NCBI RefSeq assembly: GCF_000166415.1
Contig: NC_014654.1
Coordinates: 1,240,001-1,304,000 of the forward strand
Reading direction: 5' to 3'
Length of the DNA: 64,000 bases
Origin: Halanaerobium hydrogeniformans
Lineage (GTDB): Bacteria > Bacillota > Halanaerobiia > Halanaerobiales > Halanaerobiaceae
The notes below the pieces were generated by a model. That model saw nothing but the letters and a program-made list of their open reading frames with translations, had not been told where the DNA came from and did not search any database. Below are positions 9,703-44,297 of the stretch, piece after piece (within the stretch, counting starts at the first letter, position 1; every line of letters starts with the position of its first letter). The position numbers were made by a program, and so were the translations under genes.

Positions 9703-10944
9703 ATGAATAAAAGAGTAGTAATTACTGGTGCAGGTGTTGTTCATGCCCTTGGTACTGAGGCAGATGAATTCTGGGAAAAAATAGCAGCAGGTGAATCAGG
9801 GGTAAGCAAGATCGAAAATTTTGATGCATCTGAGTTTCCAAGTCAGATCGCTGCTGAAATAAAAGATTTTGATCCAGGAAAGTATATTGACCGTAAGGAA
9901 GCTAAAAGAATGGCCCTTTACAGCCAGTATGCAATTGTATCATCTTTAAAAGCTCTTGAAGATGCAGATTTAGAATTAACAGATGATATTGCAGATAGAG
10001 CCGGTGTTATAATGGGTTCTGGTATTGGAGGAATAGAAGTTTTTGAAGAGCAGGTAGAAAAGTTACATAAAAGAGGTCCCCGCAGAATCAGTCCTTTTTT
10101 TATACCGATGATGATTGCTAACATGGCAGCAGGTAATGTTGCTATTTATGCAAATGCCAAAGGACCAAATATGAATACAGTAACTGCTTGTGCTTCAGGT
10201 ACCTCCGCAATTGGAGAAGCATTTGAAACAATTAAAAGAGGTGCAGCAGATATTATGATTGCTGGAGGAACTGAGGCTGCAATTTCCCCTTCCGCATTAG
10301 CAGGATTTGGTAATATGAAAGCCCTATCTACCAGAAATGATGAACCTCAAAAAGCAAGTCGTCCCTTTGATAAAGATAGGGATGGATTTGTTATGGGTGA
10401 AGGTGCGGGAGTACTGATTTTGGAGGAATTAGAAACTGCTAAAGCTAGAGGAGCAAATATCCTGGCAGAAATTGTTGGTTATGGAGCTTCTGGTGATGCT
10501 TATCATATTACTTCTCCAGCTCCAGAAGGTGAGGGAGCATCAAGAGCTATGCTGGCTGCAATAGAACGTTCTGGTCTTGAGTTGACTGATATTGATTATA
10601 TTAATGCTCATGGGACTTCAACCCCTTTAAATGACGAATATGAAAGTACAGCAATTAAAAATGTTTTTGGAGATCATGCTTATGATTTAACCGTTTCTTC
10701 TTCAAAATCTATGACAGGTCATCTACTTGGAGCTGCTGGTGGTGTGGAAGCCTTAATTACCACTATGGCAGTAAAAAATGACTTAGTTCCACCTACAATT
10801 AATTTTAATGAAGGTGGAGAAGGCTGTGACCTTAATTATCAGCCAAATCAAGCTGGCAAAAAGACCATTAAAGCTGCCTTAAGTAATTCTTTTGGTTTTG
10901 GAGGGCAAAACGCCTGTATTATCATTAAAAAATATCAGGATTAA
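9703..10944 (+). CDS. fabF: Beta-ketoacyl-ACP synthase II (FabF)
   Basis: Elongating condensing enzyme of type II fatty acid synthesis, 413 aa. The active-site Cys lies in TACASGTSAIGEA, with the two catalytic histidines in NAHGTSTPLND and TGHLLGAAGG. The glycine-rich SNSFGFGGQNA end is intact. ATG 9703 is preceded by TAGGAGG. A terminator follows at 10972. ACP, FabG and an enoyl reductase, often interleaved in Firmicute fab clusters, are not in this operon. Confidence 0.97.
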   Translation: MNKRVVITGAGVVHALGTEADEFWEKIAAGESGVSKIENFDASEFPSQIAAEIKDFDPGKYIDRKEAKRMALYSQYAIVSSLKALEDADLELTDDIADRAGVIMGSGIGGIEVFEEQVEKLHKRGPRRISPFFIPMMIANMAAGNVAIYANAKGPNMNTVTACASGTSAIGEAFETIKRGAADIMIAGGTEAAISPSALAGFGNMKALSTRNDEPQKASRPFDKDRDGFVMGEGAGVLILEELETAKARGANILAEIVGYGASGDAYHITSPAPEGEGASRAMLAAIERSGLELTDIDYINAHGTSTPLNDEYESTAIKNVFGDHAYDLTVSSSKSMTGHLLGAAGGVEALITTMAVKNDLVPPTINFNEGGEGCDLNYQPNQAGKKTIKAALSNSFGFGGQNACIIIKKYQD

Positions 10945-30382: not shown

Positions 30383-31213
30383 TTGTATAAATTTGACAGG
30401 AACTCTTTAATAATCGCCGCTCTCTTATTAATATTAGTTCTTACATTTCTTTTTGTCTTTATAAACGATATTGAAATTGGTTTTTTAAATTGGTTTGGAG
30501 ATATAATATATAATTTATTAACTCCCATTTTGAACTTAATGAATAATATTATTAGCAGAATTCAGGGCTTTTTTAATACATTATTTTCTATCAATGAAAT
30601 TCAGGAAGAAATAAGCAATTTAAGACAGCAAAATCAAGTTTTAGAAAGACAAATAATGTTTTTAAGCAATTATGATCGTGAGAATAAGAGACTGCGAGAA
30701 CTCCTTGATTTTCAAGAAAGAGTTGAGTATGAGATGATTGGAGCAGAAGTAACTGCTAACTCTCCCTCGGTTTTTGAACAGATAATTACAATTAATAGAG
30801 GTAGAAGAGATGGTCTGGAAGAAAGAATGCCTGTAATTACTTATAATGGTTTTTTAGTTGGTAGAATTGACTATGTTGGCAGCAGCTCAGCTCAAGTTAG
30901 ATTAATTACTGATAATCAATTTGTAGTTGGTGGTGTAGTTGCAAGAAGTGATTCAAGACAAATAGGTTTAGTCAGAGGCTCAGGCCGAAGAGATCAGAAT
31001 AATACTATGGATAATATTGCCTGGGATGCAGATGTAGAAATTGGAGATGTTATTTTAACTTCCGGATTATCAAATAATTTTCCTGAGGGCTTAAAAATTG
31101 GTCAAATAAAAAGTATAGAGACTGATAACTATGGTTTATCTCAAAAAGCAGAGGTAGAACTTGACATTCAGTCAGTAACTATTGAAGAAGTGATGGTAAT
31201 TAAGAATTTTTAA
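30383..31213 (+). CDS. mreC: Rod shape-determining protein MreC
   Basis: 276 aa: one N-terminal membrane helix (about residues 9-27), a coiled coil at about 68-105 (EEISNLRQQNQVLERQI), and an extracytoplasmic beta domain with NRGRRDGLEERMPVITYNG, VRLITDNQFVVGG and DVILTSGLSNNFPEGLKIG. It links MreB to the wall synthases. The start is TTG 30383 after a GGGGGGAG site. Confidence 0.95.
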   Translation: MYKFDRNSLIIAALLLILVLTFLFVFINDIEIGFLNWFGDIIYNLLTPILNLMNNIISRIQGFFNTLFSINEIQEEISNLRQQNQVLERQIMFLSNYDRENKRLRELLDFQERVEYEMIGAEVTANSPSVFEQIITINRGRRDGLEERMPVITYNGFLVGRIDYVGSSSAQVRLITDNQFVVGGVVARSDSRQIGLVRGSGRRDQNNTMDNIAWDADVEIGDVILTSGLSNNFPEGLKIGQIKSIETDNYGLSQKAEVELDIQSVTIEEVMVIKNF

Positions 31214-31246
31214 GTTTATCAATCAATATTAACTGGAGAGATTAAA

Positions 31247-31744
31247 TTGAAAAAATACTTTAAAAACCTCATTATTATGGTTTTACTATTAATCTGCCAG
31301 TTATTAATAGGTATAATTTTCCCTAACCTTTATTTGATACCTGATTTTATTTTAATTTTTATAGTTCTAAAAGCAATTTTCCATGGTTCAAATCAGGCCA
31401 TGATTTATGGTTTTACTGGAGGAATATTACAGGATGCTTTTTTGGGTACATTTATTGGTATCTTTACTCCTGTTAAAACAGCGGTTGCCTTTCTTTCTGG
31501 ACTGCTTTCAGGCAGGTTTTTTCCAGAAAACCTTTTAATTCCTCCATTAGGGGTTTTTTTGGCAACTATAGTCCATCAATTTCTATATATTTTACTAAAA
31601 GAAAATTATCTGTTTAATACAAATATTATATTGTTATTTAGAGAATTAATCTTACCAATGGCTGCTTTAAATGCTCTGCTCACATTTGGCTTTTATTTAA
31701 TATATTTTTTCTTAGGAAGGCGGAATATTAATTGGATAGACTAA
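31247..31744 (+). CDS. mreD: Rod shape-determining protein MreD
   Basis: 165-aa polytopic membrane protein with five to six hydrophobic helices, placed between mreC and a class B PBP as expected for MreD. Family-like segments are LYLIPDFILIFIVLKAI and YGFTGGILQDAFLG. TTG 31247 follows GGAGAG. Its end overlaps the start of the PBP2 gene. Confidence 0.88.
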   Translation: MKKYFKNLIIMVLLLICQLLIGIIFPNLYLIPDFILIFIVLKAIFHGSNQAMIYGFTGGILQDAFLGTFIGIFTPVKTAVAFLSGLLSGRFFPENLLIPPLGVFLATIVHQFLYILLKENYLFNTNIILLFRELILPMAALNALLTFGFYLIYFFLGRRNINWID

Positions 31745-33579
31745 AAATACTAAGAATTATAATTCTAGTTATATTTATTATTTTAATTTCTAGAGCAGCT
31801 TATTTGCAAATTATCAATGGAGATTATTTCTTTAGATTATCTGAAGGTAACAGGATTTCTGTACGTCCAATTAATGCTCCTCGAGGTAAGATTATTGACA
31901 GTCAGGGGAAAGTAATCGTTTCTAATCGTTTAACCTATAATTTATATTTAATGCAAAATGAAATTCCACCTGGAGTATCTGCAGAAGATATTCTAGAAGA
32001 TCTTTCAGAAATTAGTGGTATTGATTCTCAGAGATTGATAGGTAATTATAGAAATACTGATGCAAAAAGTTTGGTTGAACCGATTCTTTTAGCCCGGCAT
32101 CTTTCTAAAGAAGAGATGGTAGTCATAGTCGAGAATAATGATTTATTACCCGGGATAATTGTTCAGGAAGCATCGTTAAGAGATTATATTTATCCTGAAA
32201 ATTTGGTTCATACTACTGGCTATATTGGCGAAATAAGCAGAAATGAATTAATATCTTTCAATGAACTGGGATATAATTATAAAGCTGGAGATTTTGTCGG
32301 TAAAAGCGGTTTAGAAAGACAGTATGAATTTTATTTAGCTGGTCAAGCAGGTGCAGAACAAATAGAGGTAGATAATCGGGGACAAAAAAAACAGACTTTA
32401 GGAATTAGAAAGCCTATTGCCGGGAATGATTTAACTTTAAATATTAATTTTGATCTACAGCAGTCTGTAGAAGAAATATTAAAAGAAAGTTTTGATCGCT
32501 TGCGTATTGAAGCTGAAGAAGATGATGAAAGAACCAAACCGACTTCAGCTGCTGCTATTGTAATGGATGTAAACAGTGGGGCTGTGCTTGCAATTAGCAG
32601 TATACCCAATTACAATTTAAATCTATTTGCAAAAGGTATTTCAAACAGTGAGTTTCAAGAACTTTCAAATAATCCTTTACGGCCAATGCTTGACAGAACG
32701 GTTATGTCTGACTATCCTCCAGGCTCAATTTTTAAATTAATTACAGGAGCTGCTGCAATGGAAGAACTTGGAGTAAGAGCTGATACAAGTTTTTATGATC
32801 CTTCGGGAAGATTTTATCTCCCTAATTGGTCCAGACCTTTTAGAAACTGGCTTGATAGAGGTGAAGGACAGCTTGACTTTGTAAGAGCAATGGCCCGTTC
32901 AAATAATATAGTTTTTTATGAATTAGGCCATGAACTATATAAAGAATATCGTGGTGATAAATTAGCAGAATATGCTCGTAAATTTGGCTTGGATGAAAAA
33001 ACAGGTATTGATTTACCATCTGAAAAAACCGGTGTAGTACCTGATGATCAGTGGAAAAGAGAAAAGTTTAATGAACCATGGTATCCAGGTGATGCAGTCA
33101 ATCTTTCGATTGGTCAAAGTAATTTATTAACAACACCACTTCAAATTGTTCAGATGTTTTCTGTTTTTGCTAATGAAGGCTTATTATATAAACCACAGCT
33201 AGTAGATAAAATAACTTCTCCAGAAGGCGAAATAATAGCAGAATTTGAGCCGGTTATCAAAGCTGACTTACGCTCTGAAATTAGCCCTTCAACCTTTTCA
33301 GCTCTTAAGCAGGGACTTTATGATGTTGTAAATCAAAGCTATGGAACTGCTTCTCATCATTTTATAAATTTTCCGATTGAGGTAGCTGGTAAAACCGGGA
33401 CTGCTCAAACTTCAGTGGCCCTGACAAATCATGCCTGGTTTGGTGGGTTTGCACCTTATGAAGACCCAGAAATTGCAGTAGTTGTTTTATTAGAAAATGG
33501 AGGATCAAGTTCTTTTTCGGTACCCATTGCTAGAGATATTATAGCTCATTATTTTGGGGTTAATCAAGAAGATGAGTAA
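31732..33579 (+). CDS. mrdA: Penicillin-binding protein 2 (elongation transpeptidase)
   Basis: 615-aa class B PBP of the elongasome that cross-links peptidoglycan with RodA. One N-terminal membrane helix (residues 5-22), dimerisation domain with NAPRGKIIDSQGKVIVSNR, and a transpeptidase domain carrying the SxxK motif in YPPGSIFKLITG, the SxN motif in MARSNNIVFYELG and the KTG motif in AGKTGTAQTS. The start is TTG 31732 and overlaps the mreD end by 13 bases, so translation is likely coupled. mreBCD-pbp2-minCDE-rodA reads as one shape and division cluster. Confidence 0.95.
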   Translation: MDRLKILRIIILVIFIILISRAAYLQIINGDYFFRLSEGNRISVRPINAPRGKIIDSQGKVIVSNRLTYNLYLMQNEIPPGVSAEDILEDLSEISGIDSQRLIGNYRNTDAKSLVEPILLARHLSKEEMVVIVENNDLLPGIIVQEASLRDYIYPENLVHTTGYIGEISRNELISFNELGYNYKAGDFVGKSGLERQYEFYLAGQAGAEQIEVDNRGQKKQTLGIRKPIAGNDLTLNINFDLQQSVEEILKESFDRLRIEAEEDDERTKPTSAAAIVMDVNSGAVLAISSIPNYNLNLFAKGISNSEFQELSNNPLRPMLDRTVMSDYPPGSIFKLITGAAAMEELGVRADTSFYDPSGRFYLPNWSRPFRNWLDRGEGQLDFVRAMARSNNIVFYELGHELYKEYRGDKLAEYARKFGLDEKTGIDLPSEKTGVVPDDQWKREKFNEPWYPGDAVNLSIGQSNLLTTPLQIVQMFSVFANEGLLYKPQLVDKITSPEGEIIAEFEPVIKADLRSEISPSTFSALKQGLYDVVNQSYGTASHHFINFPIEVAGKTGTAQTSVALTNHAWFGGFAPYEDPEIAVVVLLENGGSSSFSVPIARDIIAHYFGVNQEDE

Positions 33580-33691
33580 AAAATAGTAGTTTAATGAAGA
33601 TTAAAAAATATTAAAGTTATAATTGATGAAGGTATTTCAATTATATTAAAGAATATAATTAATTAAGTGCATATAATTGAGGAGAGATTTT

Positions 33692-34297
33692 ATGAGTTCA
33701 GTTTTTTCTTTTCAGGCAGTATCAGATGGAATTGTGATGAACTTCCGCAGTGGTAGTACATTTGGTAGTATTAAAGAGGCAATTACTTTACATGCTTCAC
33801 AGGCTTCAGATTTTTTTAATGGGGTTAATTTATACCTTAATCTAAGTGGTTTGGAGCTGGCTTTTGAACAACTTCAGACACTGATGGATATTGTTCAAAA
33901 TTATAACAGAGTAAATAAGATATATTTTACAGCAAAAGAAATTAAAGCGGAAAATAAAGAGGCTGTTCCAAAATCTGAAGCTGTAATTATTAATAGGACT
34001 TTGCGTTCAGGCCAGATGGTAAAAAATCAGGCTAATGTCGTGATTGTTGGAGATGTTAATCCTGGTGCCGAAGTAATCGCTGGAGGTGATATTATCGTCT
34101 TTGGCCGCTTAAGAGGAGTTGTTCATGCAGGAGCTGGAGGAAACGAAGCTGCTCAAGTAGCTGCTTTAATATTAGATCCAACTCAACTTAGAATAGCTTC
34201 TTTAATTGCCAGGTCACCAGATGATAATCATAATTCAGGGCTGAATCCGGAAAGAGCATTTATCAAAAATGACAGTATAATGGTAGAAAAGATTTAA
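33692..34297 (+). CDS. minC: Septum site-determining protein MinC
   Basis: 201-aa inhibitor of FtsZ assembly that acts with membrane-bound MinD. The N-terminal FtsZ-inhibiting domain precedes a right-handed beta-helix C-terminal domain: RTLRSGQMVKNQANVVIVGD, GDVNPGAEVIAGGDIIVFG and LRGVVHAGAGGNEAAQVAAL are classical. ATG 33692 follows GAGGAGAG; the in-frame upstream TTG at 33677 lies before that site. Confidence 0.95.
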   Translation: MSSVFSFQAVSDGIVMNFRSGSTFGSIKEAITLHASQASDFFNGVNLYLNLSGLELAFEQLQTLMDIVQNYNRVNKIYFTAKEIKAENKEAVPKSEAVIINRTLRSGQMVKNQANVVIVGDVNPGAEVIAGGDIIVFGRLRGVVHAGAGGNEAAQVAALILDPTQLRIASLIARSPDDNHNSGLNPERAFIKNDSIMVEKI

Positions 34298-34320
34298 TCA
34301 TAAATCAGGGGGGATATAAT

Positions 34321-35115
34321 TTGGCAGGCAAAACAATTGTTGTCACTTCAGGAAAAGGTGGAGTAGGTAAAACAACATCTTCAGCAAATATTGGTACAGC
34401 ACTTGCTATGAATGGCAAAAAGGTGTGCTTAATCGATGCTGATATTGGTTTAAGAAATTTAGATGTTGTTATGGGCTTAGAAAATAGGATAGTTTATGAT
34501 ATTGTTGATGTTGTAGAAAATAACTGTCGTTTAGAACAGGCTATGATTCGTGATAAAAGATATGATGGTCTTTACTTATTACCGGCAGCTCAAACCCGTG
34601 ATAAAACTTCAGTAACCCCATTTCAGATGAAAGAACTACTTGATAATTTAAAAGAAGAAATGGATTATGTAATAGTTGATTCACCGGCTGGTATTGAGCA
34701 GGGATTTAAAAATGCTATATCTGGTGCAGATAGAGCAATTATTGTTACAACTCCAGAAATTTCTGCTGTTAGAGATGCAGATAGAATTATCGGTCTTTTA
34801 GAAGCTGAAGGGCTGCGTGATCCAGAGGTAATAATTAACCGGATTAGGGCAGATATGGTTGATAGAGGTGATATGATGGGTATTGACGATATGATAGAGA
34901 TATTAGCAATCGATCTACTGGGAATAGTCCCGGAAGATGAAGGTATTGTTGTTTCTACAAACAAAGGTGAACCGATTGCCATCAACCAAAAAGCAAAAGC
35001 TGGACTGGCATATAGAAATATTGCTAAAAGAATAATGGGAGAAGATTTACCAATTATGAAATTAGAAAAAGAAAGTTTTCTTTCTAAATTTAAGAAATTA
35101 GTTGGCTTATCTTAA
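34321..35115 (+). CDS. minD: Septum site-determining ATPase MinD
   Basis: 264-aa deviant-Walker-A ATPase that recruits MinC to the membrane. The P loop GKGGVGKTT is at residues 11-19. LIDADIGLRNLDVVMGLENR, IVDSPAGIEQGF and the C-terminal amphipathic membrane-targeting helix (ESFLSKFKKLVGL) are present. The start is TTG 34321 behind GGGGGG. The next gene, minE, begins 17 bases after its stop with an unusual start codon. Confidence 0.97.
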   Translation: MAGKTIVVTSGKGGVGKTTSSANIGTALAMNGKKVCLIDADIGLRNLDVVMGLENRIVYDIVDVVENNCRLEQAMIRDKRYDGLYLLPAAQTRDKTSVTPFQMKELLDNLKEEMDYVIVDSPAGIEQGFKNAISGADRAIIVTTPEISAVRDADRIIGLLEAEGLRDPEVIINRIRADMVDRGDMMGIDDMIEILAIDLLGIVPEDEGIVVSTNKGEPIAINQKAKAGLAYRNIAKRIMGEDLPIMKLEKESFLSKFKKLVGLS

Positions 35116-35132
35116 TTTAAGGGGGGAGTAAA

Positions 35133-35393
35133 ATCGATATTCTAAAATGGCTCGGCTTAAAGAGTGATAAAGACAAATCAAGTAAAAATGTTGCAAAGGA
35201 AAGACTTCAATTTGTACTTGTTCAGGATAGAATAAAGTTAACTCCAGATGAAATGGATGCAATGAGAGAAGAATTGATCGGAGTATTAAGCAAATATATC
35301 GATGTAGATTCTCAAAAAATAGAGATGGATGTAAAAAGAGAAGACGAAATGACAGCTTTAGTAGCTAATTTTCCCCTTAAAGGTTCAAAATAA
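35133..35393 (+). CDS. minE: Cell division topological specificity factor MinE, apparent ATC start
   Basis: 86-aa activator of the MinD ATPase. The frame reads I/M-DILKWLGLKSDKDKSSKN then AKERLQFVLVQDR, the conserved anti-MinCD helix, followed by LTPDEMDAMREELIGVLSKY and EMDVKREDEMTALVANFPLK. No ATG, GTG or TTG precedes the conserved helix in frame; the first in-frame ATG is inside the gene at about 35252. A strong GGGGGGAG site at 35121-35128 is six bases from ATC 35133, the same geometry as the TTG start of mreC. ATT 35139 is the only other candidate. The gene is absent from simple ORF calls because of this start. Confidence 0.9.
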   Translation: MDILKWLGLKSDKDKSSKNVAKERLQFVLVQDRIKLTPDEMDAMREELIGVLSKYIDVDSQKIEMDVKREDEMTALVANFPLKGSK

Positions 35394-43415: not shown

Positions 43416-44297
43416 GTGATCTTTATTTCTAAAGTTAAAATTATTGCAGACAGCTGTTCTGATCTACCACAGGAGATTGTTGACCAATATGATATAGAAA
43501 TACTTAATATTCCTGTTCATATAGCAGATCAAGTTTACTATGATAGAGATGATCTGCAGCCAGCAGATTTTTATGAGCTTTTAGCAGAAAAAGAGATTAA
43601 ACCTACAACATCGAGAATTACACCGGAAAGGTTCAAAAAATGTTTTGAAAAATACTTAGCTGATTATGATAAAATACTCGTAATAGCTTTTTCTTCTAAA
43701 TTGAGCGGTATCGCTGAATCAGCTGTTATAGCTAAAAATGAGCTTGGAACAGATGATATAGTTATTATTGATTCAAAAGCTGCTTCTGTTGGTTTTGGAT
43801 TATTAGTCTATCAGGCTGCTAAAATGCTTCAAAATGGAGAAGACTTTCAAAAAGTTGTAAGAAAGACTGCTCATACTGCTTCTCATTTAGAGCATATTTT
43901 TGTTGTTGGAGATCTGGAAATGCTAAAAAGGGGTGGTAGGATATCTAAAACTAAAGCCTTTTTTGCTGATGTATTAAATATCAAACCGATACTTCATATT
44001 CAAGATGGAGAAATATTAGCCTATGATCGGATTCGTGGTAAAAAGAGAATGTATAATTATTTGTTGAATGAAATCGAAAATAAGTGTAAAAATCCAGGTG
44101 AGCAAATTATTGGAGTCAGTTATTCAAAAGATCATAAAGCTGCAGAAAAATTAAAAAATATGATTTTTGATAAGTTTCAACCTAGAGATGTTTTTACCGC
44201 TGAAATTGGAGCAGCGGTTGGTTCTCATGCTGGTCCAGGAACACTCGCAGTTGTATTTAAAAATAGTGAAAAAACAGCAGAAGCAAAAATATATTAA
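43416..44297 (+). CDS. DegV-family fatty-acid-binding protein
   Basis: About 290 aa. KIIADSCSDLPQEIVDQYDI at the N terminus, the TTSRITPERF segment, AFSSKLSGIAESA and the C-terminal GAAVGSHAGPGTLAVVF are DegV hallmarks. Some members (FakB) deliver fatty acids to the kinase FakA, but no fakA is nearby. Start is uncertain: GTG 43416 lies inside the AGGGAG site, while ATT 43425 has ideal spacing and would give the family-like MSKVKIIADS. The GTG coordinate is listed conservatively. Confidence 0.9.
   Translation: MIFISKVKIIADSCSDLPQEIVDQYDIEILNIPVHIADQVYYDRDDLQPADFYELLAEKEIKPTTSRITPERFKKCFEKYLADYDKILVIAFSSKLSGIAESAVIAKNELGTDDIVIIDSKAASVGFGLLVYQAAKMLQNGEDFQKVVRKTAHTASHLEHIFVVGDLEMLKRGGRISKTKAFFADVLNIKPILHIQDGEILAYDRIRGKKRMYNYLLNEIENKCKNPGEQIIGVSYSKDHKAAEKLKNMIFDKFQPRDVFTAEIGAAVGSHAGPGTLAVVFKNSEKTAEAKIY

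Follow-up and report, generated by a model that had tools for sequence, protein, structure and literature searches.

The window analysed here, a 64,000-nucleotide stretch of the chromosome of Halanaerobium hydrogeniformans (genome G000; 2,613,117 bp), contains a gene cluster in the order mreC, mreD, a penicillin-binding protein gene, minC, minD, minE and a rodA-like gene. The minD and minE genes were identified by Pfam, and the remaining genes of the cluster by reading the sequence. The minE gene directly follows minD (Table 1). Its frame reads TAA GGG GGG AGT AAA ATC GAT ATT CTA AAA TGG, where the TAA is its own upstream stop, and it ends at the stop codon at 35391-35393. The protein read from the ATC at 35133 matched the Pfam MinE family PF03776 at 1.2e-23 (83.3 bits, cut-off 25), NCBIfam TIGR01215 at 3.5e-22 (78.2 bits, cut-off 49.3) and solved MinE structures at 7.8e-09, with the Pfam match spanning residues 17-83. 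By these matches the predicted product is a clear MinE, which would be expected to stimulate the MinD ATPase and to drive the Min oscillation.

Table 1. Features of the minD-minE region, with positions counted from the first letter of the window.
Feature	Position	Strand	Remarks
minD, TTG start	34321..35115	+	Pfam; stop 17 nt ahead of the minE ATC
Shine-Dalgarno region, TAAGGGGGGAG	35118..35128	+	Start codon 7 nt past the modelled AGGAGG register
ATC, putative start codon of minE	35133..35135	+	All 38 order genomes have ATC, ATT or ATA (ATH) at the homologous place
minE coding sequence, read from ATC	35133..35393	+	86 codons + stop; Pfam, TIGR01215, solved MinE structures
46-aa fragment starting at the first ATG of the frame	35253..35393	+	Product of a canonical-only ORF caller

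No ATG, GTG or TTG was found in the minE frame ahead of the ATG at 35253, in agreement with the preliminary description of this DNA, which had stated that no such codon precedes the N-terminal part of the protein. Its prediction that ORF callers would miss or truncate the gene was right in principle, as the ORF tool, limited to canonical starts, returned only the fragment listed in Table 1. Four bases (TAAA) were found between GGGGGGAG and the ATC, and six between the end of the G-run and the ATC. The preliminary description had placed the ATC six bases after GGGGGGAG, a count that has to be corrected to four; its comparison with the TTG start of mreC holds, since the spacing at the TTG at 30383 is likewise four bases. 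Among genes with AGGAGG in the sampled part of the G000 genome, the spacing peaked at 6-9 nt for ATG starts and at 7-8 nt for TTG starts, and the distance from the Shine-Dalgarno sequence to the minE ATH codon was mostly 8 nt across the order. RNA structure around the minE start showed nothing unusual (z 0.73). TTG was the apparent start of mreC, mreD, the penicillin-binding protein gene and minD (window 30383-34321). TTG starts amounted to approximately 18% in the genome sample, and by this comparison the whole operon seems weakly started.

The same ATC was found at the minE start in all 12 genomes of the genus Halanaerobium and was seen in H. polyolivorans, H. saccharolyticum, H. kushneri, H. 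salsuginis and H. congolense. When minE starts were compared across the Halanaerobiales, a check that the preliminary description had proposed, the codon at this place was ATC in 28, ATT in 7 and ATA in 3 of the 38 genomes, which represent 17 genera and 7 families, and a canonical codon was found at this position in none of them. The isoleucine codons in the body of minE were ATT (84), ATA (65) and ATC (31), and because ATC accounts for only 31 of these 180 codons (17%), its conservation at the start is not explained by codon usage. Moreover, in-frame stops were present a few codons upstream of the ATH codon in several families, which excludes a position of the codon inside a longer protein in these families. 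The ATC differs from ATG by a single base, and a sequencing error had been named beforehand as a possible explanation, to be recognised by a related genome with ATG at this place together with evidence of an error here. No genome with ATG at this place was found in the genus. Given ATC in 12 separate genomes of the genus, ATH throughout the order and a well-conserved protein, a sequencing error or a pseudogene is refuted, and we attach virtually no probability to it. These findings show that the rare codon at the putative minE start is real, old and evolutionarily kept, and that an AUH codon is conserved across species at the homologous place.

A different start could be used instead, either the ATG at 35253, which is the first canonical codon in the frame, or a canonical codon further upstream. 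Initiation at 35253 would drop the first 40 codons and with them approximately half of the Pfam MinE match, and no canonical codon was found upstream in the minE frame of the Halanaerobium genomes. Upstream ATG codons were found in five genomes of families f4 and f6. In the four f4 genomes, the ATG lies 2 nt from the Shine-Dalgarno sequence and 6 nt upstream of an ATT at 8 nt, and in the f6 genome it lies 5 nt from the Shine-Dalgarno sequence and 3 nt upstream of an ATA at 8 nt. These five genomes carry the upstream ATG at an unusual spacing, and the ATH codon may not be the sole start there. For Halanaerobium and most families an upstream or internal canonical start was rejected, and we regard the use of a different start as very improbable. 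In these genomes minE appears to combine a strong Shine-Dalgarno sequence and a productive spacing with the lack of any canonical alternative. Conservation, Shine-Dalgarno spacing and absent alternatives together strongly support the earlier proposal that translation initiates at the ATC.

Outside the order, minE starts were canonical in the genomes sampled. In families f8-f11 of the same class (20 genomes), minE appeared to start at GTG in 9, ATG in 6 and TTG in 5, and in a sample of 70 genomes from the remaining phylum, most of them from separate families, at TTG in 33, ATG in 23 and GTG in 14, respectively; the starts of the class and the phylum were picked by the best Shine-Dalgarno score, so that single assignments may be off. 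None of the 70 phylum genomes had a minE lacking a canonical start. The start was non-AUG in 47 of these 70 genomes, a hint that weak MinE initiation has long been selected for in the phylum. In a MinD tree of 58 genomes, rooted at the midpoint only, one branch (support 99/95) separated the ATH starts from the canonical minE starts. The simplest reading is a single origin of the ATH start at the base of the order.

We propose that the AUC at 35133 probably initiates with fMet, and that this weak start keeps MinE scarce relative to MinD. The strong Shine-Dalgarno sequence would position the AUC in the P site, where fMet-tRNA would initiate on the minE mRNA and methionine would become the first residue of the protein. 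Ribosomes finishing minD 17 nt upstream would probably assist; the minD stop was found 12-18 nt upstream of the minE start in most genomes, which makes coupling of minE to minD termination plausible. With its mismatched third base, the AUC would act as a near-cognate start; IF3 would discriminate against it and initiation would be slow, and MinE would as a result be made at a fraction of the AUG rate from the same message. AUH near-cognate starts are described as weak and subject to IF3 discrimination (PMC4611024), and in Staphylococcus aureus non-canonical starts with strong Shine-Dalgarno sequences gave approximately 10% of the AUG output in one medium (PMC13009471). Reduced initiation of minE would keep MinE low relative to MinD, and the pairing of a strong Shine-Dalgarno sequence with a weak codon would lead to low and steady production of MinE from a message common with MinD. 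The strong Shine-Dalgarno sequence may also offset the weak codon. In the genomes of the order where the minD start could be read, minD started at TTG, GTG or ATG, and the minE start is thus the weaker of the two. Tuning of the MinE:MinD ratio by the start codon fits both this difference and the prevalence of non-AUG minE starts across the phylum. On this sequence evidence, the amount of MinE relative to MinD is probably held down by the rare start, and selection would have kept the output reduced.

Other candidate non-canonical starts were found. Among 171 G000-G004 orthologue pairs, compared in genome samples and for coding ORFs only, 117 had a shared canonical start supported by a Shine-Dalgarno sequence, 40 had no clear shared start of this kind and 14 were flagged. 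Upon reading, minE was the one clear case among the 14. A scan for ATH starts by Shine-Dalgarno score alone, run on a genome sample, turned up mainly spurious hits, AGGTGAT overlaps among them. In a DegV-family gene, the codon at 43425 is ATT in G000 and G003 and ATG in the other genomes of the genus that were read (window 43416-43430); a GTG at 43416, three codons upstream, leaves doubt over this ATT. A zinc-dependent phospholipase C family gene has an apparent CTG start with a strong Shine-Dalgarno sequence in G000 and G004 (G000:C1 ~1227330, minus strand, L311), and a 109-codon ORF has a candidate start at ATC in G000 and at ATT in G004 after a strong Shine-Dalgarno sequence (L302 ~10605-10935). 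In a single-genome scan, a glycosyltransferase-like gene showed an apparent ATT start that immediately follows a stop codon and has AAGGTGAT upstream (G000:C1:70073, L087). ATH and CTG starts are rare, yet there may be further cases besides minE and infC.

The initiator tRNAs of the order were found to be unusual. Two initiator tRNAs were present in G000 (L132:1501-1577 and L133:1501-1577), both with the anticodon CAT, and an initiator tRNA with an anticodon that would pair with AUC was rejected on this ground. The anticodon stem reads CAGG...CCTG, with A29-U41 replacing G29-C41, where three consecutive G-C pairs have been called universal in initiator tRNAs (review, PMC4611024). All initiator tRNA copies read from 29 genomes of the order carried A29-U41 (relatives: L173-L206), and G31-U39 was also found in one of the G000 copies and in two f7 genomes. 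Mycoplasma initiator tRNAs are exceptions that carry A29-U41 or G31-U39 and go together with wide start-codon use; in relaxed initiation of the Mycoplasma type, the anticodon stem has lost its first or third G-C pair, R131 of IF3 is replaced and the SKR tail of uS9 becomes TKR. The Halanaerobiales share the loss of an anticodon-stem G-C pair, and A29-U41 is common to both groups. Unlike the Mycoplasma type, they retain R131 (present in all 30 aligned IF3 sequences of the class) and the SKR tail (in all 28 uS9 tails read), and their Shine-Dalgarno sequences are strong. Mycoplasma-like changes in IF3 or uS9 were therefore rejected, being absent.

The A29-U41 initiator tRNA may have eased the switch to an ATH start. 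The match between the tRNA variant and the minE start is imperfect because the variant covers a wider group; it was also found in f9 and part of f8, and it was absent from the initiator tRNAs of f10 and f11. If the variant tRNA tolerates AUH codons, minE might simply have slid from a GUG- or UUG-type codon and stayed there without any dosage function. The presence of A29-U41 in all copies read from the order and the few further candidate ATH or CTG starts in the genus are consistent with such drift. In that case, however, a return to ATG, GTG or TTG would be expected somewhere among the 38 genomes, yet none was found, and f9 and the A29-U41 part of f8 have canonical minE starts. As IF3 R131 and the uS9 tail are also ordinary, we consider drift unlikely, and retention of the weak start for its effect on MinE dosage remains the reading that we favour.

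The minE start can be compared with that of infC, which likewise has a fixed AUH start (AUU, AUC or AUA) and a strong Shine-Dalgarno sequence. In this order infC starts at ATC, and in most of the class outside the order at ATT, so that the premise for IF3 feedback exists. Autoregulation of infC has a direct logic, as IF3 itself rejects AUH starts, and differs in this from minE, for which we know of no link to IF3. It is conceivable that translation of minE rises when IF3 activity is low, so that the condition of the translation apparatus would feed into the Min oscillation. The infC starts and the discrimination of IF3 against AUH starts (PMC4611024) are in line with this possibility; fixed low dosage needs fewer assumptions to cover these sequence data, and we judge an IF3-responsive minE rather improbable. 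A broader proposal, which we hold with similar reserve, is that the Halanaerobiales combine mildly relaxed initiation, through the A29-U41 tRNA, with fixed AUH starts that act as dosage or IF3 valves on chosen genes. The clearest of these would be minE, and septum placement would follow the state of the translation apparatus through the MinE:MinD ratio.

Few genes are known to have conserved non-canonical starts (infC, ccpN, cvfC1 and rnhC). The putative start of minE would join this small class and stands out in it by its order-wide depth and by what the gene does. In staphylococci and bacilli, ccpN (AUA) and cvfC1 (AUU) have conserved non-canonical starts with strong Shine-Dalgarno sequences and approximately 10-30% of the AUG output (PMC13009471). 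Their starts were mapped by ribosome profiling, whereas that of minE is deduced from sequence, and the conservation of minE, unlike theirs, spans 7 families of one order. In Listeria, an experimentally confirmed ATC start of rnhC was reported within one species (PMC13068326); it is the same codon, likewise fixed within a group, in a different gene. No report of an AUH start of minE was found in the open-access literature that was searched. In a study of start-codon evolution, reconstruction of tens of thousands of ancestral starts yielded just two switches to AUU, the first out of AUG and the second out of GUG (PMC5622118), and against so few reconstructed switches an order-wide AUH start in a core division gene is rare evidence that evolution keeps such codons.

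For annotation, these findings carry a warning, as a caller that accepts only canonical starts yields a 46-aa fragment or nothing for minE. With its unusual initiator tRNA, the order allows a test outside the mycoplasmas of whether start-codon range and tRNA stem co-evolve. The Min pattern depends on the MinE:MinD ratio, and the oscillator is well modelled; the strength of the start codon would thus be a simple handle on the oscillator.
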